DNA from: Brachyhypopomus gauderio
Lineage: Eukaryota; Chordata; Actinopteri; Gymnotiformes; Hypopomidae
Direction of reading: 5' to 3'
NCBI RefSeq assembly: GCF_052324685.1
Contig: NC_135221.1
Coordinates: 24,028,592-24,092,591 of the forward strand
DNA length: 64,000 nucleotides
Shown in pieces: positions 8,651-59,673 of this stretch. The notes below the pieces were generated by a model that saw only the letters and a program-made list of their open reading frames with translations, was not told where the DNA came from and searched no databases. Position 1 is the stretch's first letter. Every line of letters begins with the position of its first letter. The translations under genes and the position numbers were made by a program.

Positions 8651-11456
8651 CTACTGTAGCGGAACAAGCAGTGGTTTGCAGTTAGCCAGGTACTCTAGAC
8701 CCTCCACTGCCTCCAAAAGTCTATCTACCTTCTCAGGGGCCAGGACAGTGCTGGCGTTATTGCGGAACTTCTTGTGAAGGCTCTCATTGCTGAGTGGGTT
8801 CCTCCAGTGACCGTAGAAGGTGTCGCAGCGGCCCCACAGGACATCCCCGGTCGCCAGCGTGACCTGCACCTCTCCGTACATTCGATCGAAACTGGCCGGG
8901 TTGTCGTGTGGATGCTCCACCCGTACACGGCTGAGCAGCACATGTAGCTCAGGCCGCATGAGTGCCTTAGGCTGAAAGGATGAGACTGTCACCTCCCCGT
9001 CCAGCAGGGCGGTGCAGGCGTTGAACTGGAATGAGTGGCGTGCTTGGTGCTCTGACTCTGGAAATGGTCGGTTAATGTACTTGGAGTGTGGGACACTGAG
9101 CAGGATGTCTCTGACCGAGCTTGGGTTGATATTGCCTCCGGAGAGGCCCGTTAGAGCCTTGTGGACAGTGCCTGCAGCGTCGGCCACCCAGTGCATGCCG
9201 AGGTGGGCAGGGAATCGTTTGAACGCCACGTCCTGCTCTTCCAGCAGGAAGCGGTGTTCATCTTCGGGTGATCCAAGAGGGTGTGGCATATAGTCTTCAA
9301 AGAACGCACCGAAGCCAGCGACCCCGGGTACAGTGTCGAGGATCAGGGGACTTGCCTCCAGCCCACGAGAAGCCAACAGGGCAGCTTCGAGACCCAGACG
9401 AGAGGCATTGCCAATGTGGAGGGGTTTTGACTGAGTGGCTGCATTTGCCATGGGAGCACCTGCTAAGGAGGCAGCAATGGCCAAGGCATTACTGCACTGA
9501 GAATGGTCCAGGGAGAGAAGACTGGCACAGGCAGCAGCACTACCCATAGTGCCTACGACAGTAGGTGGGTGGAACCTTAGAGAAGAAATACAACAGGAAC
9601 TCAGCCTCTTGAATTTCAGATCATAATTTTAAACCTAAATACTAAATCAGTACATGATTGTGATGTGTGAAGTGCTGAGGTTTTAAATCCCTTTGGAACT
9701 TCCATCTAATGACATTCTAAAGGCAATACAGTATAATTTCTTGTGAGGGTATCATTTTGTGTAATGACCTATTAACCTCTGACCACTGGTATCTTCAAGG
9801 CATTATTGAACAAATGGGTTCTGTTTAAAAGCATTTAGTGGAAATAACAAATTATAAGTCATTTCATCCATACTAAGTCAAAATAAGAGTGAAAGGTCCA
9901 ATAAGTATAATTATAAACAGAAGTGGTTTTGTCCAAATGAGTTGCGCAAATGAGTTCATAGTAACTTCCTCTGTGTCTAAATCCAGCAGGGGAAAGCTCT
10001 ACCACCTCTGTGTTTGTTAGGAAAATACCCATGTTGTTTGCCACAGAAGCTGTCCTGTTGAGACCTTTCTGACAACTTTAATTAGATTCAGCCCTATGTT
10101 AGAACCGAGGTAGACTGTTTTGACAAAGCAATCTTTCGTTCTCCCTCATTTGGGTGGAGTCAAAAAGAAGACTGTGTGTGGGAAGCAACTCTCACCTCTT
10201 GGGAATGTTGAGAGCCTCATTAGAGAATCTCAACAGCCTTCCCTGGATCTCAATGCCTACATTGAAAGCGACCAGGAAGTCCAGCCCGCTTGGCTTGCTG
10301 TTGCTGGGTAACATGTCACTAATGGCGAGTAGGGCTGGGATCACTGCTCCAGAGGGGTGTGTAGCAGGGTGCCAGGTGTCATCAAAGTCCATGGAGTGAG
10401 CCTGAGGAAGACCAGCTACTTCAGACGTGGAGCATAACCTTTACTCATTGGGTCGATTAAACGTTGTTCGACTCTGCTGTTCTGGGATAGTGGCTCTACT
10501 TGTGGTCCAGACATAATTCCATCAGAGAAATCAAGATATAACTCTTACCTGTCTTACTTAGATACATACACGTGTAATACTTACCTCCAGGAAAATATGT
10601 GAAGTCCAAATAACAATCACATAACCTACAAGACCCTTATATTTGTCACTCAAACTGGTGTACGATGACATACTTTACTATTGAGAATGAATACATTCTA
10701 GACACACATTGTATAATTTGTTGATTGTGTATTTCTGGGGAAAAGAAATTATGGCATAGAGATAGCATAGCCATAGTCTTTGTAACACTAAACACTGTAT
10801 CTAAACAAGCAAACAAACATAACAACAAATAAATAAATAAATAGATATGCCCTCTGTAAATACTTACTGCTACTCCATTGACAAAGGCAGCAAGGGTTGG
10901 AGAGAACCTGGTTCCACTTCGCCCATACACAAAGCTGATATCATCAGGGGCGTACATGTGCTTTGGGATGAAGTAAAAAAGTGGTCAGTCTCTCACTGTA
11001 GTACATTAATACACTACACACACACACACACACACACATACTGCATGTGTCAGCACAGCAGCAGCAGCCTAGGAAAAGACTGTGTAAAGTCTGTGTGTAA
11101 GTGCTGTGCACATGGGAGAAAAAGCAACTAGATGATATATTATCACTAGTCTAGATGATATTTTATCACTAGTCTAGATGATTATAGTCTTAGTGGGGGT
11201 GAAGTGTGCTCTGTAAAGACCAGGCCATTATGCTTTATATAAACTCCGTCCCGGTAAAGTTCCATTTGGTGCTGTATGTTTGCTGTTCGAAGTATTAAGT
11301 AGTTAAGTAGACTTTCCCTCTACTCAGAAGTATACAGAAATAAATCAGGTGTGGCAACAAGCTTCTGTGCTTCTGTAACTCTGTGCCAGTTAATTTTTAA
11401 TAATTGCCTAGTGTTATATTTAATGGACTATTACAGTAAGAGAAATGAAGAGTAGT

Positions 11457-11498
<42 letters not shown>

Positions 11499-12474
11499 GG
11501 CAGTGCTGAAGGGCCAGCTCAAACACTTCAGTGCTGCTACCCAGAAGTCCCACGCCGATGCTGTCCAGCACCATACGTTTGCTGCGCTCTAGGACCGTGG
11601 GTGACAGATGCCGTGGCTGCACACTCTGGATGAACCTCCCAAAGCTGCTGGTCACTGTCTCCTCAGGGGCAGGACGCTCCACAACTGGACACACAAGCAA
11701 GAGAATTCAGTGTCTCCGCCCACTGTGTTCTCATAGGCACCTTGGCAGCCGGGAATTCATGGCAAAAGTCTTATGAGGCGCAATAAATGTTTGACCAGCT
11801 TGACCAGAGAAAAGGTCCATTGGAAATAAGTGTGTAATAAGTGTTAAAACTGGCTCACCACCTAATGCAGATTTGTGCAGTGCTCTAACCACAGACGGAG
11901 TAGTTATTTGGCAGATGGATCTCTGTACAAAACAGGTTATAATTGTTCAAAAGAAACAATGGTATGTAATCAATATGCTTTTGGTAATTTTATTTAACTT
12001 CACTTCTCAAGACATTAAATACTGTATTTACTTTTAGTACTTTAAGTTTTTGGACAGCAATGCAATTTTTGTATTTAATAAAAGTCACTAATCTACTTCT
12101 CGATGTCCACATAATTCCCTATCTTAGATTTAGGCTCACTCTTAGATTTAACATGGGAGGAGTACATTGGTGATATATTACATAACTTCACACAGCTCTT
12201 CTGGCTACATGTCTGTAAGACTGTAGGTGTTTTAGTTATCAATGTTCACACAAATGATGCTACTGTGTTCACACAAACAATCAAAAGATCAAGATCAAAA
12301 GCTCTGTGTTGAGTAGACATCCAAAAAAAACGTATGCAACATAGGAACACTCCCGTGCTACAGCGTCTTATAAGTAATTTTGTCAAGCATCAAACATTAT
12401 CTATCTAACTTATCATTACAAGCACATACATATTTGCACACATAAATACTATTTACCTGTAGCTTGTAAAGCAT
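8651..12474 (-). CDS. acod1: cis-aconitate decarboxylase (itaconate synthase), 6 coding exons
   Basis: MmgE/PrpD-family enzyme that decarboxylates cis-aconitate to itaconate in mitochondria of activated macrophages. Coding exons on the minus strand: 12457-12474, 11859-11922 (or ending 11862), 11497-11684, 10868-10960, 10196-10401 and 8651-9575. All junctions are GT..AG and phases agree (0,1,0,0,2), giving 497 codons; the human protein has 481. Residues known to line the human active site are visible: MDFDDTWHPATH (Asp, Thr, His), FHPPTVVG (His), ATQSKPLHIGN (Lys) and AFKRFPAHL (Lys). The first two exons encode a basic, hydroxylated leader (MLYKLQRSICQITTPSVVRA) resembling a mitochondrial presequence. 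The start is the ATG at 12472-12474, with no upstream ATG back to the predicted TSS near 12600. The exon 3 donor is the first GT of a GT microsatellite. A possible AATAAA lies at 8458-8463. Exon 6 identity is very secure; exons 1-2 are an inference from phase and leader character. Confidence 0.93.
11458..11496. repeat. (CA)n microsatellite at the acod1 exon 3 donor
   Basis: About 20 CA units; on the gene strand the GT repeat begins with the splice donor itself. A shorter CA array lies at 11017-11038 in the next intron. Confidence 0.9.
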
Positions 12475-12835: not shown

Positions 12836-12841
12836 TATAAA
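12836..12841 (+). promoter_or_regulatory. TATA box and noncoding first exon of fusion gene A (candidate)
   Basis: TATAAA on the plus strand, followed about 50 bases later by a perfect donor (CAG|GTAAGT, exon end 12891). This donor can splice to the acceptor at 13757-13758, just ahead of the gene A start codon. Together they suggest a short untranslated exon of about 25 bases. An ATG at 12861 would be out of frame with gene A and lies at or before the predicted start site. Confidence 0.4.
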
Positions 12842-13788: not shown

Positions 13789-14040
13789 ATGGCATCAGTA
13801 AATGGGTTTCCTGCAAGTTTCTACAGTGAACCTGGTGTTCTTGGATTCTTGGCCAATGGTATCAGTGCTCTCTTGGTCCTTCTTCAGAACTTCCACGGAG
13901 CCAGAACTGGGATTCCAGCAGCTGGAACTGCAAATATTCTTGCAGGTCTTAAATGAGCTCAGTTAATATATCTACCTATAAATCTTTAATTTCACAGGCA
14001 TATTAAGTTTAGATCAAAACCAAAACCTTTTATGTATGAA

Positions 14041-14088
<48 letters not shown>

Positions 14089-17000
14089 TTGAAAATGTTG
14101 TGATATCTTCTTTCTGTAGGTGTTCATCTAATTCTAATTGGTGGAGTGTGCCAAATGATTGCTGGCTTGCTGTCCTTCCGTAAATACGACCATCTGAGTG
14201 GCACGTCTTTTATCGGCTATGCAGCTCTTTGGGGAAGTTATGGAGCAACAAGAATATTTCTAGGAGCAAACCAACACAATCCAAACACAAATATCACCCT
14301 GGAGAACCTTTACTTGAACTTCACTCCTGGCAATGAAACTTCCATCCCTAGTTACCTTAGTGAGTCTGCTATAGCAGGGCTTGTGCCCTACATCTTGCTG
14401 TCCTTCATGTTGGCTTTCTGTTCAGCCACAGTCAACTACATTATGCCATTTGTGTTTGGATCCATCACTCTCACACTGGTGTTTGAAGCTGTGGGACTAG
14501 TGGCAGGCTGGGCTCTGGTGGTCTCCGCAGTGCTGGAGCTCCTCATCTTGCTCTTTGCCATTTATGGCTCAGCAGCATTACTCATTAAAGGAGTTTCCCA
14601 ACGCTACGTCCTTAAGGGTTTTGGTAATCCTCTCTTTAATGTGCTGCTACTCGGAACAACCAATTCCGGTAGTTCCCAGAGCCTTGGCCAGGAGAAAAAA
14701 AAGAACACAAAATATGCTGAACCCATGGCTTTGGGCTTTTTCTGTGATGCAGTCTCACCATTCATATTTGCTTTCTATGCCTTTGGGTACTTTCCATCAA
14801 TGACAATAGGTGCCATTTGGGTATCCATCAACTCTGTGGGTCAGCTCCTCTCAAGTTACTATGCTTACTTGCGACAAGACAGTTACCATCTCACAAAGTT
14901 TGGTTTGCACTGCACCTTCTGGCTTGTGAAGACCTGGGAAGAGTATGTCATATCAATGTTGACTGGGCGTGAAGGAGCTGTGGGAAAACAGGCCATGGTG
15001 GGTGACTGGTTTTTCCTGGCAGCCGCTCTGGTCCTCTGTTTTGTAAGCCTGAACATGGACATGCTGGAGCTGGTCCACAATGGCTTCTTCTTCCTGATGA
15101 CCATCTCAACCATCTCCCAGATCCCTCTTGATGGCTACTATATCTTTTTTGGAATCACATGTTCCCTTTTCACAGCCATCTCAATGTATGGGACCTTTGC
15201 CCGACTCATTAACACGATTGCAGAGAAGTCTCTTATTCCAGTTGGTCCCCAGCTTGTCTCAACTGACCGACTCAAGAGTGGCTTTGACCATCTAAGGAAG
15301 TCCCAACAGGATAAGCCCCAAGAAAATGGTAGCCAGTTGCCTGATGCTTTGTTTTACCTCACCAATGGAGTGGCAGCTCTCTCAGCCATCCACAGCAGCC
15401 TGCCCCATCAGAGCTTTTTGGATCTGACAGTTCCCTGGGTGCTCATCCCAGGGGCCATAATACAGGCCTACGTCAGCCGTCTGCAAGTTCAAGGAGGACG
15501 AAGGTTTGGGTGTATTATCCCATCATTCTACGTGGCTATTTGGGCCACCTGGACCTGGTTCAGATTTGCAGGTATGTGCATGAAGTATTCTTAATGTTCA
15601 AATATTTTCAGAGCTAAAGTACATTATTATTATGTTAATATAATAACTAATTTAAAAAACCTAATAAAATAAAAAGCTAATATTGAATGATCAGATTTAC
15701 ATACTATGTTGAATAATGCTGGATCATTAAATGATATCTTTCTCCTTACAGGATATCGTCTGCAGATTTCCATAGAGTCGGCCACTGGCTTTACAGTAGG
15801 AGCAGTGTCCTTCTTAGTGATCAATGCTTTTTTAATGATAGTTGGTAAGTTTCATGAGGTTAATTTCAAAATCATTTGTGACTTCACCAGTATTTAAGGT
15901 TAAGCTAGACACAATTATCTTTGTCATTTACAGCAGCCTATGGCAATCTGGTTTTGTTGTCATCAACTGTTATCATGGAGGTCATGCTGGTGTGCTTTCT
16001 GCTCTCCACTCTTGGGAGACTGCCGTACCAGTTGGAAGGTGATGTTTATGTTGCATTGTACACAAATGCATTTCTGTTTTCTGCTAAATTAATTTTCTCT
16101 TTGACTGCATGAAGTTAATATGTTAATATGTTTTTATGTCCCTTTTCAGTTGCTATGCTTTCCATCTTTGCCATCATTTGTTTATATGGCACTCTCTCAT
16201 CGCTGGTTAACTGTATCTTTTCCAAGAACCTTATGCCAGTTGGACCTGCACTGATAAAGGTATTTTATTTCTTTATTTCTGCACAATATGTTTTACTGAA
16301 ACCTCTCAGTAGGCATTAACTACGAAAAGGTTTTTGATTCTTTTGTCTTATTCTTGCCAGAACAATAATGAAAAGGAAGCTGCAGTCAAAGCTCCATGTC
16401 CTGTTGCTACATCGCAGGGGACCAGTGGACTTCTACAGATCGCCAAATTGCTAGAACATAACGGAGTATGTGGAATTCCAACTGATACTGTCTATGCACT
16501 GGCTGCTTCCTGCAAGAATCCCACTGCAGTAGAGAAGATATACAATATCAAAGTGAGTTAAGTGACAGTATATAGTGTCTATATACTGTTTGCATTGTTA
16601 TATCTATTTGAAATAAATGTTACAGAAATCTCATGACTGTTCCTGTTCACCACATAGGATCGTCCTTTAGAGAAACCAATATGCATCTGCATCTCAAGTG
16701 TGGAACAGCTTGTGGCCGCCAAACCTCCATTCAGCCCTCTGCTGTGGGAGTTCATGAGGCGTGTGTATCCAGGAGGCATCAGCTGTATTGTCCCAAAGAG
16801 TGACTGGCTCTTTAAGCTTGGTAAGGGAGCTACATTGTAAAACATCACTGTCCTTGGGTAATGTTCTCATCTTAAATGATCTTGGAATCCTCTCCTTAAG
16901 GTGTAGGGCCTGCATTTGACTGTGTGGGGACTAAAGAAAGCATAATGATCCGGGTCCCAGACCACACAGTCACAGCCCACCTGTGTAGCATCACTGGACC

Positions 17001-17714
17001 ACTGGCTATCACATCTGCAAACCCTAGTGGTGAACCTGACAGCACACATCATGACATGGTCATTAAGTAAGTTTCATTCTCTTCTTTGGGTTTTTTATTT
17101 AAAGTATTTGTGTATTATTGTATACTTGTTTGTATATACAAAACATTACTGTCAAGCTCATATTTTTGACAAATATTTGCTAATATTTTTAGTAGTCAAC
17201 TTAATTACTTGGAAATGTTACTTGATTCTTGTCCATTTGTATTCATAAGACTTTGAAAGTTTTTGGACTTATGAAAGTTTTTGGCAGGTGGTACTGATAT
17301 CAAGATATAATTAAAACACTTTCTGAAAGTCATGAAAATGCTCCTAATCATTTTCTGTGATTTTACATTTAGACTTTTGATGTGCAAATTTTTTGGCAGC
17401 ATTTGTTGATACTGATATCCAGGTTTAACTAAAAGCATTTTAACATTCCAACAGTCGCCTTGGGTACAAGATTCAAGGAGTATTGTGTGATGGAGAGTCT
17501 AATGAGGTGGTGCCTTCAACAGTAGTCAACTGCCTGAAAATCGATGAAGGTAACATGAAATTGAATATAACAACACAGACATTTCCTTTAAACTTCTAGA
17601 GTACTTACTAAAGCCATTTTGTTCTCAGGTACAATAAGCATACTGCGAGAAGGATGTGTTCCGGCAGTCAAAGTAAAGCAGATTTTTGAGAGGGTAAAGA
17701 ACAGTATGCTGTGA
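13789..17714 (+). CDS. fusion gene A: three SatP-like (GPR1/FUN34/YaaH) membrane units plus YrdC/Sua5 domain
   Basis: Coding exons 13789-13945, 14120-15571, 15752-15844, 15934-16038, 16150-16259, 16361-16552, 16658-16820, 16901-17066, 17455-17549 and 17629-17714; phases agree throughout; 872 codons. Residues 1-639 are mostly hydrophobic and fall into three units (about 13-250, 253-430, 459-639). Unit 1 shows the family pattern: GVLGFLANG, then GGVCQMIAGLLSFRK, then SFIGYAALWGSYG, like bacterial acetate/succinate carrier SatP. Units 2 and 3 end in IPVGPQL and MPVGPAL, like the PIGE tail of SatP. Residues 661-872 are a YrdC domain: PTDTVYAL (679-686), the KxR motif in IKDRP (Lys703, Arg705), ITSANPSG, STVV and a closing LREG. 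YrdC enzymes make threonylcarbamoyl-AMP from threonine, bicarbonate and ATP for tRNA t6A. Two NxT/S sites lie in a loop of unit 1. AATAAA at 18182-18187 may end the transcript. Divergent to acod1. Fold assignments are strong; transport substrate and enzyme activity are unknown. Confidence 0.88.
14043..14085. repeat. (TA)n microsatellite in gene A intron
   Basis: About 21 TA units between the first two coding exons. Confidence 0.9.
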
Positions 17715-18730: not shown

Positions 18731-19530
18731 GAGTACCTAGATGTAGTTGTAGGTGTAGTTGTAGTAGGTGTAGGTGGAAAAGCTTATTTATTTTGTTTAT
18801 TGTTGTCATTTTATTTATATCCTGGAGTAGGTGTAGGTGTTGTGTAGGTGTAGTAGGTGTAGTAGGTGTTGTGTAGGTGTAGGTGTTGTGTAGGTGTAGT
18901 AGGTGTAGGTGTAGGAGTAGTAGGTGTAGGATGTGTAGGTGTTGTGTAGGTGTAGTAGGTGTTGTGTAGCTGTGGTGTAGGTGTTGTGTAGGTGTAGTGT
19001 AGGTGTAGTAGGTGTAGGTGTTGTGTAGGTGTAGTAGGTGTAGGTGTTGTGTAGGTGTAGGTGTTGTGTAGGTGTAGGTGTAGTAGGGATAGGTGTTGTG
19101 TAGGTGTAGTAGGTGTAGGTGTAGGTGTAGTAGGTGTAGGTGTTGTGTAGGTGTAGTAGGTGTAGGTTTTGTGTAGATGTAGGTGTAGTAGGTGTAGGTG
19201 TAGTAGGGATAGGTGTTGTGTAGGTGTAGTAGGTGTAGGTGTTATGTAGGTGTAGGTGTAGTAGATGTAGGTGTTGTGTAGGTGTAGGTGTAGTAGGTGT
19301 AGGTGTTGTGTAGGTGTAGGTGTTGTGTAGGTGTTGTGTAGCTGTGGTGTAGGTGTTGTGTAGGTGTAGGTGTAGTAGGTGTAGGTGTTGTGTAGGTGTA
19401 GGTGTTGTGTAGGTGTAGTAGGTGTAGGTGTTGTGTAGGTGTAGGTGTAGTAGATGTAGGTGTAGTAGGTGTAGGTGTTGTGTAGGTGTAGTAGGTGTAG
19501 GTGTTGTGTAGGTGTAGGTGTAGGTGTTGT
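18731..19530. repeat. GT-rich minisatellite (GTGTAGGTGTAGTAGGTGTT type), left part
   Basis: Tandem mix of GTGTAG, GTAGTAG and GTGTTGTGTAG blocks. Long Thr/Tyr/Leu frames on the minus strand are artefacts. The array resumes at 21438 after a LINE insertion. Confidence 0.9.
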
Positions 19531-21437
19531 CAATCAATCAATCAATCAAAGTTTATTTGTATAGCGCTTTTAACAACTCAAGTTGTCGCAAAGCAGCTTT
19601 ACAGGGTTTACAAGGTTAACAATACTATGGGTCCAGAACCCTAATGAGCAAGCCAAAGGCGACAGTGGCGAGGAAAAACTCCCTATGATGGTGGGGAATA
19701 GGAAGAAACCTCGGGAGAACCAAGACTCAAAAGGGAACCCATCCTCCATTGGGCGGCCCGTTAACACACAAATACACAAGTCACACATAATTCACACAAT
19801 CAGACTAGGTAAAAGGTAAAATTGAAAGTTCTGGGTTTTGATATTGTCACTGTAAATGTCTGTTGATGAATGCCAGGCTTTCATTCCGTGTCGGAGCAGT
19901 GATGCTGGTATTGTAGGCTCCGACTGCAGTGTTACTCCCCAGGTGAACCCCGGTATCAGCACATCCACCGGCAGCCAGACCATCCCCCAGGTGCCTGCAG
20001 GTGCCTGTATCCAATCGTCTTGGGTAGAGCCATGCAAGAAGATAGATAATACAGACTGAGTGGACATGAATTTAAACCACCGTTGATTTAAATGTACGTA
20101 GCTCATGTGCCAGTGATCAGCATGTGGCTCCGGCAGACTAATCTATAGCAGCATAACTAAAGGGAGGGGTTCAGAGGTGACCACAGGCATGAGGGCTCAC
20201 TGAGACATTACTTTCCAGTCAAGTCATAGTCACAAATAGAGTGATGCCAAGACACAGCTGGATGACAGCATCAACATCTCAGATCACCAGAAAGGGGAAT
20301 TTTAGCTGAAGGCTTGACTAAACAGGTGAGTCTTAAGTCTAGATTTAAAGATTGGAACTGTGTCAGAGTCTCGGATTGGAGCTGGAAGGCTATTCCATAA
20401 TTGAGGGGCTTTAAAAGAGAAAGCTCTGCCTCCGGCTGTAGTTTTACTAATTTTTGGAACTACGAGAAATCCAGCATTTTGGGAGCGCAAAGGGCGAGAT
20501 GGGTTGTAGTAATCAATGAGTTCACTCAGATATTGTGGGGCAAGACCATTTAACGCCTTATAGGTTAACAGGAGAACTTTACATTCAATGCGATATTTAA
20601 TCGGCAGCCAGTGTAGTGCGGCGAGAGTGGGACTAATATGATCGAATTTCCTAGCCTTGGTTAGGACTCTAGCTGCGGCATTTTGTACAAGTTGTAGCTT
20701 CTTTATGGACTGTTTAGAGCATCCAATTAGAAGACTATTACAGTAGTCCAATCTCGACGAGACAAAAGCATGAACTAGCTTCTCTGCATCAGCTAATGAA
20801 AGTAAGTGTCTCAGCTTGGCAATATTACGTAAATGGAAAAAGGCAGCCTTAGTGACATTGCATACATGTGTGTCAAATGAAAGATCAGAATCAATAGTGA
20901 CACCTAAACTTTTTGCAGTAGATTTTGGTGTTACTGAAAAACCATCTAGGGTAAGGGGAATATCAGCCCAATTGCTTCTAACAGCTTTAGGCCCAAGAAT
21001 CAGTACCTCAGTCTTGTCAGAATTTAGTTTAAGAAAATTAGACGCCATCCAGTTTTTAATATCCTGGACGCAGTTCTCAATCTTAAGAGTTGTGGTGGTA
21101 TCATCTGGATTAGAAGATATATACAACTGAGTATCATCTGCGTAGCAATGGAAGCTAATGCCATGCCTACGAATGATAGTGCCCAATGGTAGCATATATA
21201 ATGAGAATAATATGGGGCCCAGTACAGATCCTTGTGGGACACCATACTTTACTTTAGAATGCTCAGAGCATTCGTTATTTACTAGCACAAATTGGTAACG
21301 ATCTGTCAGGTAGGACCTGAACCAGGAGAGTGCTTGACCTCTTATGCCAATGAGTGTCTCCAGTCTATTAAGTAGAATATTATGATCAATGGTGTCAAAA
21401 GCAGCACTGAGGTCTAGCAGTATGAGAAACGAAATGT
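19531..21437 (-). mobile_element. CR1/L2-type LINE, 5'-truncated copy B
   Basis: Starts on the minus strand with reverse-transcriptase codons ([19 protein letters not shown], then [10 protein letters not shown]). It reads through to the C-terminus ([13 protein letters not shown], stop near 20302), a 3' UTR and a (TTGA)n tail at 19531. Near-identical to 26219-28165 in the opposite orientation, so recent. It splits the GT-rich minisatellite. Confidence 0.92.
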
Positions 21438-21506
21438 GTGTGTAGGTGTAGTAGGTGTAGGTGTTGTGTAGGTGTAGGTGTAGTAGATGTAGGTGTAGTA
21501 GGTATG
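21438..21506. repeat. GT-rich minisatellite, right part
   Basis: Same units as 18731-19530; separated by LINE copy B. 21507-22332 beyond it shows nothing recognised. Confidence 0.85.
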
Positions 21507-23615: not shown

Positions 23616-26600
23616 ATGCCCGGCCACAAGTCCAAGACCAAAAAGGGCAAGAAGAAGACCAGCAAGCGGCGCCACCGCTCATCGCCCTCGTCTTCACGGG
23701 GAAGCTCGCCCGTCCGGATCGGCGTCCTTGCATGGTGTGAGACCGGTCCGCCACCAGAGGGCGGCAGTGGAGTGGAGGTAAACCAGCCCACGCCGGACAG
23801 CCCCATGCCTACTCAGGTGCAGCTGGAGGGCGACCCTGTATGCGCGTCCTTGCTGCGGCACGCTCGGAAGTACCACAACCCCGAGGCGGCGGAGGGGCTC
23901 CGCCAGGAGGCGGTGAGAATATGGAGGGCGTACCACTCCCCGTCCTCCAGGGAGCCCTCGCCCCAGCGGGGAAACACCGTGGAGCTCTGCGGGTTGATGA
24001 GGGACCCCGCGAGCGAGCTGGGAGAGGACTCCCCAGACGAGGAGGCGGAGCCGGACTACGGTGGAGGGGTTCACCATCCGTCATGGGACGACGCCTCCAC
24101 CGTGTACTACGGTGGAGAGGGCTACCCCCCGTCGTTAGACGCCGCCTCCACCGTGGGCTACGGTGGAGAGGACTACCCACCGTCCGAGGTCTCCTGGAGT
24201 GGAGACAACGAGGAGAGCTCTCCTCCCTCGGAATTGTCAGTCGAGCCCACGAAGGGGAAGTGGACCCCCTCTTCCGATCGCTCCAGTGACAGCGACATGG
24301 ACTGCACCCGGGGTGGCAGCCCGGAGCAACCCATGGACTGGAGCCAAGGAGAAGAGGGGTCACACCTAGGTCACACCAGATTGAAACTGTGTCTGTTCCT
24401 CGAGTACCAAAAAATAATTCTCGTAAAGTTAGTAGACAAAATTTAATCAATGTTAAATTCAACTATGCTCCCTCAGAGAGCAGTTTAAATCTGAAACTAG
24501 GACTACTAAATATTAGATCCCTGTCATCTAAAGCATTGCTTGTTAATGAAATGATTACCGATCATGATCTATGCATGCTTTGCTTGACGGAAACCTGGAC
24601 CCGACCAGACGACTATATGGCCCTAAATGAAGCTTCTCCCTCTGGCTATAGATATGTCCATAACCCCCGTCCAAATGGTCGAGGAGGTGGGGTCGCTACA
24701 ATATATGACTCTGATATAGGCATTTCTCAAAAATTTGGCTTCAAGTTTAATTCTTTTGAACACCTCATCCTCACTGTATCAAATGTTTCAAATTTAACAA
24801 GCAACAAAGTGTCACAGTCGTTTATGTTAATTACTATTTACCGCCCCCCTGGTTCATACTCTGAGTTCTTGCAGGAGTTTTCAGACTTCCTGTCTCATGT
24901 AGTGCTATCAGCCGATAAGGTGATTATAGTGGGTGATTTTAATATCCATTTTGAAAATCAGTGTGACTCTTTTAGCATTCATTTTCAAGCAATTCTTGAT
25001 TCAATGGGTATCACTCAGAATGTGGTGGGTCCTACGCATAACTGTAGTCATACTTTAGACTTGGTCTTGTCATTTGGTATTGACATATCCAGTTTAGCAA
25101 TTCTTCCTCAGAGTGAGGCTGTTTCTGACCACAGCCTCATAACATACGAGTTGTGTTTAACTGACTGTGTTCATCGGCCACCCCGCTATCAAATTAAATG
25201 AGCTATAACACCCAGCACCATAGCCGCGCTCACTGATATTTTACCGGGTTTGACAAACACTGATCCACTTGTAGCTCCGGAAGGACTAGAGCGTTTCACC
25301 GAGCACGTTGAGACTTCCCTTCGTACAGCTTTAGACAAAGTTGCACCACTACGATATAAGAGAGCCACGGAGAGAAGAATAGCGCCATGGTACAATGAGC
25401 ACACGCGTAGCCTCAAACGAGCCGCGCGGATCCTGGAACGTAAATGGCGAAATATGAAGTTAGAAGTGTATAGACTATCATGGAAAAGCAGCCTTATTGA
25501 ATATAAGCATGCCCTCCATATGGCAAAGTCCTTATACTTATCGGCCTTAATAGAAAAACATAAAAACAATTCAGGACTCCTTTTTAAAACTGTTTCCAGC
25601 CTTACGAGGAGTCATGAACAAAACAATTCTCTTATTCCACTAGAGTGTAGCAGTAACAATTTTATGAAATTCTTTAATGATAAGATTGATAAAATTAGGG
25701 AAAACATTAGTAGTGCTATCTCAGAGCCTGTCAACATGCCAATGCACCTTGACAGCTGTCTGGTCAGCTCTGATGCCCTGTTCGAGTCCTTCTCCCCAAT
25801 TGGTCGTGAGGAGCTTATTTCACTGGTGAAATCTGCTAAACCCTCCACATGCATACTAGATGCTGTACCAACCCATCTACTTAAAGAATTACTGCACAGC
25901 AATGTAGAACCGTTGCTTACTATAATAAATTATTCTCTGAGCCTGGGCTACGTTCCCAGTTCATTTAAACTTGCAGTCATCAAGCCGCTAATTAAAAAAC
26001 CTGGTCTTAACCCCCAAGAACTGTCCAACTATAGGCCAATTTCTAATCTGTCATTCATATCCAAAATTTTAGAGAAAGTAGTTTCTTCACAACTCTCTTC
26101 CTTCTTACAGACAGAACATGTCTTAGAGTTATTTCAGTCTGGATTTAGAGCTCATCACAGCACTGAAACAGCACTAACTAAAGTACTGAATGATCTCTTA
26201 ATATCCTCTGATAAAGGACACATTTCGTTTCTCATACTGCTAGACCTCAGTGCTGCTTTTGACACCATTGATCATAATATTCTACTTAATAGACTGGAGA
26301 CACTCATTGGCATAAGAGGTCAAGCACTCTCCTGGTTCAGGTCCTACCTGACAGATCGTTACCAATTTGTGCTAGTAAATAACGAATGCTCTGAGCATTC
26401 TAAAGTAAAGTATTGTGTCCCACAAGGATCTGTACTGGGCCCCATATTATTCTCATTATATATGCTACCACTGGGCACTATCATTCGTAGGCATGGTATT
26501 AGCTTCCATTGCTACGCAGATGATACTCAGTTGTATATATCTTCTAATCCAGATGATACCACCACAACTCTCAAGATTGAGAACTGCGTCCAGGATATTA

Positions 26601-28564
26601 AAAACTGGATGGCGTCTAATTTTCTTAAACTAAATTCTGACAAGACTGAGGTACTGATTCTTGGGCCTAAAGCTGTTAGAAGCAATTGGGCTGATATTCC
26701 CCTTACCCTAGATGGTTTTTCAGTAACACCAAAATCTACTGCAAAAAGTTTAGGTGTCACTATTGATTCTGATCTTTCATTTGACACACATGTATGCAAT
26801 GTCACTAAGGCTGCCTTTTTCCATTTACGTAATATTGCCAAGCTGAGACACTTACTTTCTTTAGCTGATGCAGAGAAGCTAGTTCATGCTTTTGTCTCGT
26901 CGAGATTGGACTACTGTAATAGTCTTCTAATTGGATGCTCTAAACAGTCCATAAAGAAGCTACAACTTGTACAAAATGCCGCAGCTAGAGTCCTAACCAA
27001 GGCTAGGAAATTCGATCATATTAGTCCCACTCTCGCTGCACTACACTGGCTGCCGATTAAATATCGCATTGAATTTAAAGTTCTCCTGTTAACCTATAAG
27101 GCGTTAAATGGTCTTGCCCCACAATATCTGAGTGAACTCATTGATTACTACAACCCATCTCGCCCTTTGCGCTCCCAAAATGCTGGATTTCTCGTAGTTC
27201 CAAAAATTAGTAAAACTACAGCCGGAGGCAGAGCTTTCTCTTTTAAAGCCCCTCAATTATGGAATAGCCTTCCAGCTCCAATCCGAGACTCTGACACAGT
27301 TCCAATCTTTAAATCTAGACTTAAGACTCACCTGTTTAGTCAAGCCTTCAGCTAAAATTCCCCTTGTAAGGTGTAGGGGCTTGGGGGCCCCCAGACGTTG
27401 AGATTTCTGGTGATCTGAGATGTTGATGCTGTCATCCAGCTGTGTCTTGGCATCACTCTATTTGTGACTATGACTTGACTGGAAAGCAATGTCTCAGTGA
27501 GCCCTCATGCCTGTGGTCACCTCTGAACCTCTCCCTTTAGTTATGCTGCTATAGATTAGTCTGCCGGAGCCACATGCTGATCACTGGCACGTGAGCTACG
27601 TACATTTAAATCAACGGTGGTTTAAATTCATGTCCACTCAGTCTGTATTATCTATCTTCTTGCATGGCTCTACCCAAGACGATTGGATACAGGCACCTGC
27701 AGGCACCTGGGGGATGGTCTGGCTGCCGGTGGATGTGCTGATACCGGGGTTCATCTGGGGAGTAACACTGCAGTCGGAGCCTACAATACCAGCATCACTG
27801 CTCCGACACGGAATAAAAGCCTGGTATTCATCAACGGACATTTACAGTGACAATATCAAAACCCAGAACTTTCAATTCTACCTTTTACCTAGTCTGATTG
27901 TGTGAATTATGTGTGACTTGTGTATTTGTGTGTTAACGGGCCGCCCAATGGAGGATGGGTTCCCTTTTGAGTCTTGGTTCTCCCGAGGTTTCTTCCTATT
28001 CCTCACCATCATAGGGAGTTTTTCCTCGCCACTGTCGCCTTTGGCTTGCTCATTAGGGTTCTGGACCCATAGTATTGTTAACCTTGTAAACCCTGTAAAG
28101 CTGCTTTGCGACAACTTGAGTTGTTAAAAGCGCTATACAAATAAACTTTGATTGATTGATTGATTGAAGAGGGGGAGGACATGGAGACCGAGGTTGACCG
28201 TCCGCACAGCCCTTTCGGCACGACCGCCAGTAGCTCTGCGTCCGAAGCGTCCTTCAGCCGCGCAGCACACGGCACGTCAGCCGGCCGCGCAGCACCCAGT
28301 GGATGGGCTGCAGCTACGGCTGGAGGTGGAACGGTGCCCGCAGCTCCCGATCTCTCGCTCCTCTGGGCTTTCGTCTTGGCGCGTAGCTGGGCGCCTTTTT
28401 CATGTTTGTGTGTGCCTGTGTTCGTAAGTCTTCCCGTATGTGTGCCCAATCCGTTATTCCCTTTCGTGCCTCTGTGTGTTAGTGTGCCAGTCTGTGTGTT
28501 TGTGAACGTCCCGTTGAGTGTGTCTAACGTGTTTTCCCCCATCTTCCCAGGGAGGGTGTTTTAG
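23616..28564 (+). pseudogene. single open frame of LTR element B, split by a LINE
   Basis: ATG at 23616, 26 bases after the 5' LTR. 248 codons run to 24359; the frame resumes at 28175 and ends at 28562-28564. The LINE and one target copy account exactly for the gap, so the frame was continuous for about 377 residues. The N-terminus is Lys/Arg/Ser-rich (MPGHKSKTKKGKKK). The middle has about three copies of an acidic repeat with YGGE(G/D)YPPS. The C-terminal part is hydrophobic. No retroviral-type gag, protease or polymerase motif was recognised; function unknown. It may be a gag-like packaging protein. Confidence 0.6.
24360..28165 (+). mobile_element. CR1/L2-type LINE copy A, nearly intact ORF2
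   Basis: Target GAAGAGGGG is duplicated at 24351-24359 and 28166-28174; (TTGA)n tail at the 3' end. The endonuclease part runs 24389-25198 (LNIRSLSSKA, TETW, GDFNIH, SDHSLI). A single TGA at 25199-25201 interrupts the frame, which continues to 27355 with reverse transcriptase ([36 protein letters not shown]). ORF1 is missing, so the copy is 5'-truncated. Confidence 0.93.
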
Positions 28565-33285: not shown

Positions 33286-33356
33286 TGTATGCACAAAAAC
33301 ACGTACAGATGTGTCATTAACTAGTCATTAATTAAAATTAACACTATTGTGACTGG

Positions 33357-35835
33357 TATGTTTCTGCGTTGTGTAAGAATCACTATCCACATGCTTAATA
33401 CACATATGAAATATGTTGTCCTTATGTGACCGGTGTGTTTCTGCGTTGTGTAAGAAATACTATCCACATGCTTAATACACATATGAAATATGTTGTCCTT
33501 ATGTGACCGGTGTGTTTCTGCGTTGTGTAAGAACCACTATCCACATGCTTAATACACATATGAAATATGTTGTCCTTATGTGACCGGTGTGTTTCTGCGT
33601 TGTGTAAGAATCACTATCCACATGCTTAATACACATATGAAATATGTTGTCCTTATGTGACCGGTGTGTTTCTGTGTTGTGTAAGAATCACTATCCACAT
33701 GCTTAATACACATATGAAATATGTTGTCCTTATGTGACCGGTGTGTTTCTGCGTTGTGTAAGAATCACTATCCACATGCTTAATACACATATGAAATATG
33801 TTGTCCTTATGTGACCGGTGTGTTTCTGTGTTGTGTAAGAATCACTATCCACATGCTTAATACACATATGAAATATGTTGTCCTTATGTGACCGGTGTGT
33901 TTCTGTGTTGTGTAAGAATCACAATCCACATGCTTAATACACATATGAAATATGTTGTCCTTATGTGACCGGTGTGTTTCTGCGTTGTGTAAGAATCACT
34001 ATCCACATGCTTAATACACATATGAAATATGTTGTCCTTATGTGACCGGTGTGTTTCTGCGTTGTGTAAGAATCACTATCCACATGCTTAATACACATAT
34101 GAAATATGTTGTCCTTATGTGACCGGTGTGTTTCTGCGTTGTGTAAGAATCATTATCCACATGCTTAATACACATATGAAATATGTTGTCCTTATGTGAC
34201 CGGTGTGTTTCTGCGTTGTGTAAGAATCACTATCCACATGCTTAATACACATATGAAATATGTTGTCCTTATGTGACCGGTGTGTTTCTGCGTTGTGTAA
34301 GAATCACTATCCACATGCTTATGTGTGTGTGTGTGTGAGTGTGTGTGTGTTTCTGCGTTGTGTAAGAATCACTATCCACATGCTTAATACACATATGAAA
34401 TATGTTGTCCTTATGTGACTGGTGTGTTTCTGCGTTGTGTAAGAATCACTATCCACATGCTTAATACACATATGAAATATGTTGTCCTTATGTGACCGGT
34501 GTGTTTCTGCGTTGTGTAAGAATCACTATCCACATGCTTAATACACATATGAAATATGTTGTCCTTATGTGACCGGTGTGTTTCTGCGTTGTGTAAGAAT
34601 CACTATCCACATGCTTAATACACATATGAAATATGTTGTCCTTATGTGACCGGTGTGTTTCTGCGTTGTGTAAGAATCACTATCCACATGCTTAATACAC
34701 ATATGAAATATGTTGTCCTTATGTGACCGGTGTGTTTCTGTGTTGTGTAAGAATCACAATCCACATGCTTAATACACATATGAAATATGTTGTCCTTATG
34801 TGACCGGTGTGTTTCTGCGTTGTGTAAGAATCACTATCCACATGCTTAATACACATATGAAATATGTTGTCCTTATGTGACCGGTGTGTTTCTGCGTTGT
34901 GTAAGAATCACTATCCACATGCTTAATACACATATGAAATATGTTGTCCTTATGTGACCGGTGTGTTTCTGCGTTGTGTAAGAATCATTATCCACATGCT
35001 TAATACACATATGAAATATGTTGTCCTTATGTGACCGGTGTGTTTCTGCGTTGTGTAAGAATCACTATCCACATGCTTAATACACATATGAAATATGTTG
35101 TCCTTATGTGACCGGTGTGTTTCTGCGTTGTGTAAGAATCACTATCCACATGCTTATGTGTGTGTGTGTGTGAGTGTGTGTGTGTTTCTGCGTTGTGTAA
35201 GAATCACTATCCACATGCCTAATACACATATGAAATATGTTGTCCTTATGTGACCGGTGTGTTTCTGTGTTGTGTAAGAATCACTATCCACATGCTTAAT
35301 ACACATATGAAATATGTTGTCCTTATGTGACTGGTGTGTTTCTGCGTTGTGTAAGAATCACTATCCACATGCTTAATACACATATGAAATATGTTGTCCT
35401 TATGTGACCGGTGTGTTTCTGCGTTGTGTAAGAATCACTATACACATGCTTAATACACATATGAAATATGTTGTCCTTATGTGACTGGTGTGTTTCTGCG
35501 TTGTGTAAGAATCACTATCCACATGCTTAATACACATATGAAATATGTTGTCCTTATGTGACCGGTGTGTTTCTGCGTTGTGTAAGAATCACTATCCACA
35601 TGCTTAATACACATATGAAATATGTTGTCCTTATGTGACCGGTGTGTTTCTGCGTTGTGTAAGAATCACTATCCACATGCTTAATACACATATGAAATAT
35701 GTTGTCCTTATGTGACCGGTGTGTTTCTGCGTTGTGTAAGAATCACTATACACATGCTTAATACACATATGAAATATGATGTCCTTATGTGACTGGTGTG
35801 TTTCTGTGTTGTGTAAGAATCACTATCCACATGTT

Positions 35836-35840
<5 letters not shown>
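33357..35840. repeat. 77-bp satellite with an 835-bp higher-order period
   Basis: About 32 tandem copies of a 77-bp unit (contains TTTCTGCGTTGTGTAAGAAT and CACATGCTTAATACACATAT). Variant units recur exactly 835 bases apart: the ATGTGTGTGT interruption at 34321 and 35156, ACAATCC at 33921 and 34756, CATTATCC at 34151 and 34986. So blocks of about eleven units were duplicated. Confidence 0.95.
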
Positions 35841-36094: not shown

Positions 36095-36154
36095 GTGTAA
36101 GAATCACTATCCACATTCAATCTCTGTAGGCGATCTTCTTTTATTGGATCAGCC

Positions 36155-43595: not shown

Positions 43596-47674
<4,079 letters not shown>

Positions 47675-51402: not shown

Positions 51403-52619
51403 ATGGCAAAGCGTGTAGCAGTGATCCTTGCTGGCTGTGGAGTCTATGATGGGACAGAGATCCATGAAGCTTCTGCTATACTGGTACATCTTAGCCGGGC
51501 TGGTGCTAAGGTAAGACAGGAAATAACTTATTTGCATATATAGATGTTTGTCCATGTGTGTGGAAACATACACACATGCATCATATATCAATATTTTGGA
51601 CATGTTCATGCAACTTTGATGTTGACACCTGTGACATCTCAAACTCAAATAAGTCTAAATAAATAAATGTAATTCTGAGGCATCATAAGGGATTCACTAA
51701 TGCTTTTCAACTGCAGGTTCACATGTTTGCCCCCAATGCTGAGATGATGCATGTGGTGAACCACTGCGAGGGAAAACCTGTGACGGACAAGCGCAATGTG
51801 ATGCAGGAAAGTGCCCGCATTGCTCGAGGAGAGGTCACCGACCTGGCCAAACTGGACTCCAAAGACCACGATGTCCTCATCATTCCAGGTCAGTTCAACA
51901 GTCTGGAGTCCAAGTACACTGTAAATCATCTTCCATTAAATGTCATACTGTAATGAAATATAATACCCAAGTATTTCAATTGTATGTTCATATTCATAAA
52001 TTGCTGCAGTACTTTTATTTTTGGAAATAAACCTTACACCATGAAGGTCATTCACTGGAAAATTCCTGACTCGTGAAGTTCAGAACTACTCTGTGATGTA
52101 CTGGTGTCTTCAAATCTAATAAAGTTTACTGCTCCATCCAGGAGGGTTTGGAGCTGCCAAGAACCTCAGTGACTGGGCCACCAAGGGAAAGGAGTATTCA
52201 GTGAAGCCCCTGGTTGAGCAGGTCATCCAGAGTTTCCACAAGGCGGGCAAGCCCATGGGCATGTGCTGCATCTCACCAGTGCTGGCAGCCAAGACCATCC
52301 CTGGCTGTGAGCTCACCGTGGGCCATGACTCCGAGTGTGAGAAGTGAGTATGACATAAACAACACATACATTGTAAAATCAAATGATTGTATGTTAAATC
52401 CACTCTTCACTCTCCCCATCATCTAGGTGGCCATATGCCAGCGTAGCCAAGTCAATGGTGGAACTGGGCTGCAAACATGTGAATAAAAATGTTGGAGAGG
52501 TCCATGTGGACAAGAAGAATAAACTTGTGACTACTAGTGCCTTTATGTGCAATGCACCACTGCATGAGGTATTTGATGGACTGGGGGTCATGGTAACTGA
52601 AGTTCTTAAAATGGCCTGA
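51403..52619 (+). CDS. GATD3/ES1-like protein (DJ-1/PfpI superfamily)
   Basis: Coding exons 51403-51510, 51717-51888, 52142-52343 and 52427-52619; phases 0,1,2 agree; 224 codons. The protein matches the ES1/GATD3 family along its length: [18 protein letters not shown] at the start, an nucleophile-elbow-like [12 protein letters not shown] (Cys135-Cys136), then TVGHD and [13 protein letters not shown] at the end. Human GATD3 is a mitochondrial protein reported to act as a deglycase; fish ES1 was first described as a mitochondrial protein of photoreceptors. Here the reading frame begins directly at the core domain with MAKRVAV, without the long N-terminal presequence of human GATD3 (about 268 residues). 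This copy may therefore be cytosolic, or a second gene beside a canonical es1. The start has a good context (ACAATGG). Divergent from fusion gene B, with about 3 kb of repeats between. Family is certain; the exact orthologue is not. Confidence 0.9.
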
Positions 52620-57607: not shown

Positions 57608-59673
57608 TTATTCACACTTAGTGTTTTTGATGGAGAAGTGGTTGTACTCGTCATTTCCACTAACCAAAACAATGGCTGGGAAACTTCTAGGCCGTTCAGG
57701 ATCCTATCAGAAACACAAAGAACACATTGGCATGTTTCATTGGCAAATAGTTTTTTCTTCCAAAACCAGAAATAGTGACCAGTCTGTCCTGACAGGAGTG
57801 CTGGGATTATAACCTGAATTGGATATGCTGCCGTGGGAACGTAGCGGATCACGAAGCCACAACGCCTCCTGTCGGACATGTTGGGATCACTGGCATGAAC
57901 CAGAAGTCCATCATGGATCTACACAATATTAATATTACAGACAGTTTAGTGTCATGTATTTGTCAGCTCTATTCCCAGACTGGCTCAGCACAGAATTGCT
58001 TAGCACATAACACGTTCATACTGCCCCAAAGTCTTGATAGCTATATCCTATTTTATTCAATGCAGACATGCATAAAGCCAAACTTACAGACATCTGCCCT
58101 GCAAGCAGGGGGCAGAGCACGGCTTTGTCTTTCTGCACCAGCTCCTCTGGAATCTCTTGATTGACAGATAACATGTTACCAGGACGCTTGGCTTGCCGAT
58201 GTGGCATAAGGCCAGAGCAGTGAGTTCCTGTTGAAAAGGGGGCAAACTCATGAAAGTTACTGCTTAACTCAGACTACAGTGTGAGATTAGCTGAAGACGT
58301 GTCTCCGTGCATATATTTGGATAGGCTGAAGGGATCCTTTGTTTTCAGAACATACAGGGTTTGTCAACCTAAAAGGAAGCAGAAGGTTGTATAAATCCAT
58401 CTGGAAGACGTTTGTACCTGGAATGACCCGCAGGGCACCGTTCTCCTCCAGAGAGTCATCCAACGCAAGCCAGACAGACACAACTGGCCCTCCATCAAAT
58501 CCCCAATACCTATGACCATGTACATAAGGTATATTCATGTAGTTCCCAAATCTACAAAATGTGTACATTTACATCATGAATCTTACAAAAAATACATGAA
58601 ACAAATCAATATTGTTACAGCAACTGTGTGAACAAGTACATTAAGCATTTGAATGTCTGATCATGTGTTCAATCCAGTTCTTCTCTGTTCAGTCACATTT
58701 CACTTACTTCATGTCTTGATGCCAGGCGACATATGGAGGCTCAGAGAACATTTTCTGATCAGGCTCAATTTTGTCACTTTGTGTCTGAGCTAGATGAAGC
58801 TTTGACACTGGGTATTTGCAGATGAACCGGGAATCCAGCAGGAGGACATCAGGGCCCAGGATGGCTGTAATAACCTCTAGAACTTTGAGGTGTTTGGTTA
58901 GTGCCATGACCCAGTCGTATTCCATATGCACATTGTGCAGGCTATAGGAGGTGTAGTCCTCCCCTGTGTCAAAAGTTTGAGCACACACATTACATTAATA
59001 CGATTAAATAATTTCATAACACAAGGCAAAAAGGAAAAGTAAAAAATAAGCAATTTTTCACCAGCACGTTTAACACATTCTTGTGCATCTAAAGGTGATG
59101 GTGAAAAGTTGTGAAGCATTTAAGCATGTGATCTCTCTGTGCTCTCTCTGTGCTCTCTCTGTGATCTCTCTGTGATCTATCTGTGCTCTCTCTGTGATCT
59201 CTCTGTGATCTCTCTGTGCTCTCTCTGTGATCTCTCTGTGCTCTCTCTGTGATCTCTCTGTGATCTCTCTGTGATCTATCTGTGCTCTCTCTGTGATCTC
59301 TCTGTGATCTCTCTGTGCTCTCTCTGTGATCTCTCTGTGATCTCTCTGTGATCTATCTGTGCTCTCTCTGTGATCTCTCTGTGATCTATCTGTGCTCTCT
59401 CTGTGATCTCTCTGTGATCTCTCTGTGCTCTCTCTGTGATCTATCTGTGCTCTCTCTGTGATCTCTCTGTGATCTATCTGTGCTCTCTCTGTGATCTCTC
59501 TGTGATCTCTCTGTGCTGTTGTTCCAAACAATGCCACACTTACCAAACTTTCTCTCCAGTTCAGCAAACGCAGCCCTAGCCTGCCGTAGCTCCTCGGAGC
59601 TCAGTATGGGGAGGCTGGTCAGATAGCCCAGCTTCTCATAAAGGGCCTTAAGTTCTGCCTTCTGTCCACTCAT
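57608..59673 (-). CDS. PhyH-family Fe(II)/2-oxoglutarate dioxygenase
   Basis: Coding exons on the minus strand: 59544-59673, 58708-58963, 58418-58509, 58088-58227, 57814-57918 and 57608-57703; phases 1,2,1,0,0 agree; 272 codons. Iron-binding residues are visible: His125-x-Asp127 in VAWHQDM and a distal His in LLVHAS (His214), followed by an Arg-rich SDRRRCGFVIRY that would hold 2-oxoglutarate. ENGALRVIPGTH is the usual PhyH turn. It resembles bacterial-type phytanoyl-CoA dioxygenase family proteins more than human PHYH or PHYHD1, judged from memory. Substrate unknown. The start chosen is the ATG at 59671-59673; the frame is open further upstream but with no ATG. A CATAAAAG box at about 59785-59793 could serve as TATA. 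Intron 1 holds a 12-bp-type minisatellite. No peroxisomal targeting signal is evident at the C-terminus (NTKCE). Confidence 0.87.
59120..59515. repeat. (TCTCTGTGATC/TCTCTGTGCTC) minisatellite in phyH intron 1
   Basis: About 33 units of 12 bases with GATC/GCTC/GATCTA variants, starting about 30 bases inside the intron. Confidence 0.92.

Follow-up and report, generated by a model that had tools for sequence, protein, structure and literature searches.

We analysed a 64,000-nucleotide stretch of the genome of Brachyhypopomus gauderio (contig NC_135221.1, positions 24,028,592 to 24,092,591 of the forward strand), referred to here as the window, with coordinates counted from its first letter. The gene under study, gene A, joins three membrane units resembling the carrier SatP to a C-terminal YrdC/Sua5 domain. 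The features of the locus most telling for its function are a divergently transcribed acod1/irg1l gene at 8651-11928 and a second member of the same family, gene B, at 43695-47674. Itaconate, or methylene-succinate, plays a central part as an antimicrobial and anti-inflammatory metabolite, and its passage across membranes has been worked out only recently, in mammals.

8651..11928, minus strand: acod1/irg1l (cis-aconitate decarboxylase), head-to-head with gene A and transcribed away from it; the span excludes the first four codons
12674..12683, plus strand: GGGAATTTCC, a perfect match to the NF-kappaB consensus, in the gap between irg1l and gene A
13789..17714, plus strand: gene A, an ATO-YrdC gene with 10 coding exons and GT-AG introns, 872 residues
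43695..47674, minus strand: gene B, an ATO-YrdC gene with 9 coding exons, 883 residues, 18 predicted membrane helices and a YrdC domain in which KxR has become KxQ

A reading of this DNA from its letters alone, here called the sequence-only reading, had proposed a single spliced gene at 13789-17714 combining three SatP-like units with a YrdC domain, and both proposals hold. Its entry on the gene leaves acod1/irg1l and gene B unmentioned. The ten joined exons match letter for letter NCBI LOC143527536 isoform X2 (row P0001), an uncharacterised B. gauderio protein, and 18 predicted membrane helices precede the C-terminal YrdC/Sua5 domain. Judged from the names of its relatives, gene A is the orthologue of zebrafish si:ch211-153b23.3 (hereafter.3). 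Its parts are arranged as follows.

13789-13945, 14120-15571, 15752-15844, 15934-16038 and 16150-16259, plus strand: coding exons 1-5
16361-16552, 16658-16820, 16901-17066, 17455-17549 and 17629-17714, plus strand: coding exons 6-10
13816..14625, plus strand: unit 1, SatP-like, residues about 10-221
14710..15252, plus strand: unit 2, residues about 250-430, six helices in the model, ending IPVGPQL
15340..16259, plus strand: unit 3, residues about 460-639, exons 2-5, helices in the model, ending MPVGPALIK
16430..17693, plus strand: YrdC/Sua5 domain, residues about 663-866, with PTDT at 679-682, K703/R705 and S796/N798

Among 7994 candidates scored, 341 proteins were related to gene A at an E-value of 0.001, of which the best 120 are listed and discussed here. 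These share 61-100% identity with gene A, and most are full-length (114 of the 120 have at least 800 residues). Their sources include ray-finned fish, a shark, a chimaera, a frog and a caecilian. The whole fusion is also carried by six listed contigs of 2768-3490 bases (rows P0034, P0072, P0080, P0084, P0091 and P0118) from a source labelled 'lgn', presumably assembled sequencing runs. They encode 879-892 residues, for which 2640-2679 bases of coding sequence are needed; being transcript-sized, against a gene of 3.9 kb with nine introns, they resemble assembled transcripts in which a single frame covers both parts. A chance chain of open reading frames, or two genes merged, is ruled out by the identical annotated protein and the full-length relatives, and prokaryotic contamination by the introns of gene A and its position on the same contig as irg1l of the same species. 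Some fish have second copies of gene A, such as AOLI_G00063480 and AOLI_G00063510 in Acnodon, and Toxotes and Melanotaenia each contribute two gene A rows on contigs of one length.

In the structural model of gene A, the 18 membrane helices form three SatP-like units, and unit 1 adopts the six-helix SatP fold. By sequence, SatP is approached most closely by unit 1 in gene A and by unit 3 in gene B. Within gene A, profile comparison links units 2 and 3 (96%, E 2.4e-9); it also links unit 3 to its counterpart in gene B (99.4%, E 3e-21), and unit 2 reaches only E 5.9 against SatP (5zug). Of the two family assignments made in the sequence-only reading, YrdC is clear at 127 bits, whereas Gpr1_Fun34_YaaH (PF01184, cut-off 25) is borderline in unit 1, scoring 23.8 on the whole protein and 25.5 on residues 1-231 alone, and the Pfam search gave no match in units 2 and 3. 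Precomputed annotation assigns PF01184 to part of the relatives of gene A.

The SatP/YaaH and fungal Ato proteins (AceTr, PF01184) differ from gene A, which has three units per chain, an additional enzyme domain, EPGVLG for NPAPLGL and an Asn aligned with the constriction Phe. According to a hidden Markov model alignment, the NPAPLGL position of unit 1 reads EPGVLGF, with E14 in place of N; P15 occurs in 66/66 rows, and L18 and G19 in 65/66, with one gap. In the same weak alignment (global alignment probability 9%), the F of the FLY constriction falls on N23 (Asn in 65/66 rows, one gap) and the L on I168, while the Y is kept at position 86 (60/66, otherwise F) and the tryptophan of SY[F]GFW as W90. 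Some charged residues, E175 and E192 among them, are located within predicted helices and are shared by 95% or more of the rows. SatP transports acetate, lactate and succinate; in yeast, replacing the constriction Phe or Leu of Ato1 by Ala allows succinate to enter (PMC13316224). Gene A could be a general acetate, lactate and succinate carrier of immune cells, its transport coupled to the YrdC reaction and itaconate a minor substrate. We consider this alternative unlikely: it accords with the substrates of the family, with the fold of unit 1 and with the coupling of import to assimilation proposed in the discussion of PMC13316224, and leaves the changed NPAPLGL and the Asn at the constriction Phe unexplained.

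The YrdC/Sua5 domain of gene A scores 127.3 bits with PF01300 (cut-off 25.1) over residues 669-853 and passes the TIGR00057 equivalog cut-off (127.7 against 123.2 bits). YrdC/Sua5 proteins are threonylcarbamoyl-AMP synthases that use threonine, bicarbonate and ATP, and their KxR and SxN residues are those we take to form the active site. K703, R705, S796 and N798 are conserved in 120/120 listed relatives, 66 aligned rows agree, and PTDT is kept too. Compared with known YrdC/Sua5/TsaC proteins (PF01300, TIGR00057), the domain in gene A sits on a membrane protein.

Gene B lies 26 kb from gene A and corresponds to NCBI LOC143527538 (row P0241), its joined exons again matching the B. gauderio protein letter for letter; the names of its relatives identify it as the orthologue of si:ch211-153b23.4 (hereafter.4). 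It differs from known YrdC/Sua5/TsaC proteins in scoring below the TIGR00057 cut-off (112.1 against 123.2; PF01300 115.2) and in having lost the KxR arginine, which is missing in 120/120 listed relatives (Q in 107, H in 11, K in 1 and A in 1). The other three KxR/SxN residues are kept in all 120, and 49 aligned rows agree. Its YrdC domain is altered and probably inactive, and gene B is likely a non-catalytic or re-purposed copy.

These data bear on a second alternative, in which gene A would be mainly a membrane-anchored threonylcarbamoyl-AMP synthase that boosts t6A modification of transfer RNA during the immune response, with the membrane part as anchor or sensor. The TIGR00057 result and the invariant K, R, S and N of KxR/SxN speak for such an enzyme. 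Gene B, however, retains its membrane part although its arginine is gone, which indicates that this part is conserved without a standard active site, and the conserved charged residues inside the helices of gene A also argue against a mere anchor. We regard this as the least probable of the explanations considered.

The sequence-only reading knew of no described animal protein of this make-up; that statement is outdated by PMC13316224 (iScience, 22 June 2026), which describes vertebrate ATOs of about 900 residues with three transport domains and a C-terminal Sua5/YciO/YrdC domain, falling into two vertebrate clades. Gene A, with 872 residues, 18 helices and YrdC, shares this architecture, and genes A and B probably represent one clade each. 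The same paper reports that mammals lack the family and that protostome ATO sequences lack the YrdC domain, proposes a ring of two protomers with no pairing of A with B, and leaves the vertebrate function open. Its main text makes no mention of itaconate, acod1/irg1, synteny or neighbourhood, and no link between the family and acod1 or itaconate appears in the titles or abstract openings of the papers listed by searches of open-licence full text, at most 40 per listing. The architecture is already known; the present analysis adds the linkage to acod1, the shared expression and the absence of the KxR arginine from gene B.

In unit 1, the loop that follows helix 3 carries an N-glycosylation sequon in 66/66 aligned gene A rows, which fits a lumenal or outside loop. 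Together with the topology of SatP, these sequons fit a cytosolic YrdC domain and the secretory pathway rather than the mitochondrion. A mitochondrial location, implied by some database names, is disfavoured on the same ground.

The identity of acod1/irg1l is supported by a PDB cis-aconitate decarboxylase match (E 3e-160) and by a 100% match of its exons to the B. gauderio NCBI entry 'immunoresponsive gene 1, like'. To assess linkage, species with rows in both searches (the best 120 of 341 for gene A and the best 120 of 858 for irg1l) were paired by hand. Contigs of identical length carried irg1l and gene A in 35/42 species, from sturgeon and gar to percomorphs, and irg1l, gene A and gene B all lay on contigs of one length in 20/26 species where gene B could be compared. 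A single contig of 25,743 bases holds irg1l and gene A in Scleropages; gene B of Amia lies on a separate contig. Locus tags of irg1l and gene A are consecutive in seven of the ten species with tags in both rows (Prochilodus, Acnodon, Albula, Aldrovandia, Zoarces, Channa striata and Mugilogobius) and not consecutive in Danionella, Coregonus suidteri and Siganus. The perfect GGGAATTTCC match is not significant alone, since the window holds 6 NF-kappaB consensus matches against 3.9 expected, which is within chance. A TATAAA at 12836, in the same gap, is likewise within chance for the window.

The sharing of contigs with acod1 is left unexplained by a general carrier. A third alternative holds that a shared inflammatory control region alone underlies both neighbourhood and co-expression, the substrate having no connection with acod1 (bicarbonate, ammonia or urea, for instance). 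Linkage in so many species tells against an unrelated substrate, as do the SatP rows (19.2-19.8), which outscore UreI for the unit compared, and we judge this account quite unlikely.

Expression data from zebrafish associate the same genes. Four transcriptome papers, one of them on Shigella infection, name irg1l together with.3 and/or.4. In larvae infected with Shigella sonnei, irg1l,.4 and.5 are among the top 50 differentially expressed genes (PMC6980646); one module has five hub genes, among them irg1l,.3 and.5 (PMC11140123); and irg1l,.4 and.5 are upregulated together elsewhere (PMC9228135). From the table of PMC8877790, we correlated irg1l with 25 other complete rows over 18 exposures, obtaining 0.90 for.4, 0.88 for.3 and 0.86 for.5; apart from two rows considered below, the others (20 in all) fell between -0.49 and 0.50.

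The unit 1 fold, the 18-helix layout, the intact YrdC residues and the recurrent acod1 linkage were computed directly, and the role suggested in the sequence-only reading, a carrier or sensor of small carboxylates with a nucleotide-binding domain, is consistent with them. We tentatively propose a more specific role, at somewhat less than an even chance: gene A may encode a carrier of itaconate that is induced in the immune response and bears a threonylcarbamoyl-AMP-synthase domain on its cytosolic side. This reading accounts for the linkage, the expression and the chemistry of the family together. On infection, gene A would be induced with its divergent neighbour, whose enzyme makes itaconate; the metabolite would leave the mitochondrion and then cross the plasma or phagosomal membrane through the SatP-like pores of gene A, probably with protons. 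The N-terminus and the C-terminal YrdC domain would face the cytosol, where the latter would use or sense ATP, threonine and bicarbonate, thereby coupling the carrier to metabolism. Gene B, with its altered and probably inactive YrdC domain, would serve as a partner.

Several observations weigh against an itaconate carrier. Linkage and co-expression could be explained by shared immune control alone. In the PMC8877790 table, sult5a1 (0.91) and si:ch211-207n23.2 (0.90) show correlations with irg1l as high as those of.3 and.4, so a general inflammatory programme may account for the co-expression. Two further zebrafish papers name one of the genes and not irg1; in one of them, PMC11489432,.3 is listed as strongly down, though not significantly (adjusted p 0.18). 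Seven of the 42 species have the pair on contigs of differing length (Coregonus clupeaformis, C. suidteri, Scophthalmus, Tachysurus vachellii, Anguilla, Salmo trutta and Oncorhynchus mykiss); as rows represent clusters, such a mismatch is weak evidence either way. Sequons are present on the predicted cytosolic side as well: 20/66 gene A rows have one at position 234, and 45/49 gene B rows have one at position 577. The NPAPLGL signature is absent from the gene A protein, and the mapping of SatP residues relies on a global alignment that was forced and scores poorly (probability 9%). Finally, mammals retain ACOD1 without gene A.

Mammalian itaconate transport has been ascribed to MCT1/4 and ABCG2 (PMC12658120), whose proposed job resembles that of gene A in moving itaconate across plasma and vacuole membranes, a likeness by proposed function only. 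As an extension of the itaconate carrier, A and B might together form one itaconate channel, a six-unit ring resembling the SatP hexamer, with a working YrdC domain in A and a non-catalytic regulatory one in B. The pair would be the dedicated itaconate carrier of non-mammalian vertebrates, and mammals would have lost it and rely on MCT1/4 and ABCG2. Such a ring is supported, though not decisively, by the three-gene linkage, the shared expression and the complementary likeness to SatP of unit 1 in A and unit 3 in B, and we hold it to be improbable. MCT1/MCT4 and ABCG2 belong to protein families other than that of gene A.

If gene A does carry itaconate, the vertebrate ATO family would be given a function, together with an immune context and a direct test by knock-out in zebrafish. 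Non-mammalian vertebrates would then have a dedicated carrier, joined in one protein to a threonylcarbamoyl-AMP synthase and inherited and expressed with the itaconate enzyme, which raises the question of why it was lost in mammals.

Two further genes lie beyond gene B in the window.

51403..52619, plus strand: ES1/ElbB (GATD3-like) gene, NCBIfam ElbB 259 bits, PDB 1oy1 E 1e-52
57608..59673, minus strand: PhyH-family (phytanoyl-CoA dioxygenase-like) gene, PF05721 on one exon, 15 PDB rows

The best PDB match of the PhyH-family gene is 6zyk (E 3e-20), and PHYHD1 matches at E 8e-10. The zebrafish phytanoyl-CoA dioxygenase gene zgc:174917 is, like irg1l, among the top 50 genes of the Shigella study (PMC6980646), which, given the PhyH gene in the window, suggests that further genes may belong to the co-expressed cluster. 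The segments 19530-21439 and 26218-28167, located between genes A and B, are inverted and 99% complementary, with reverse-transcriptase open reading frames inside. A tandem array at 33348-35837 consists of 32.6 copies of a 77-base unit (95% match), and a distinct 41-base repeat forms arrays at 36154, 38827 and 40306.
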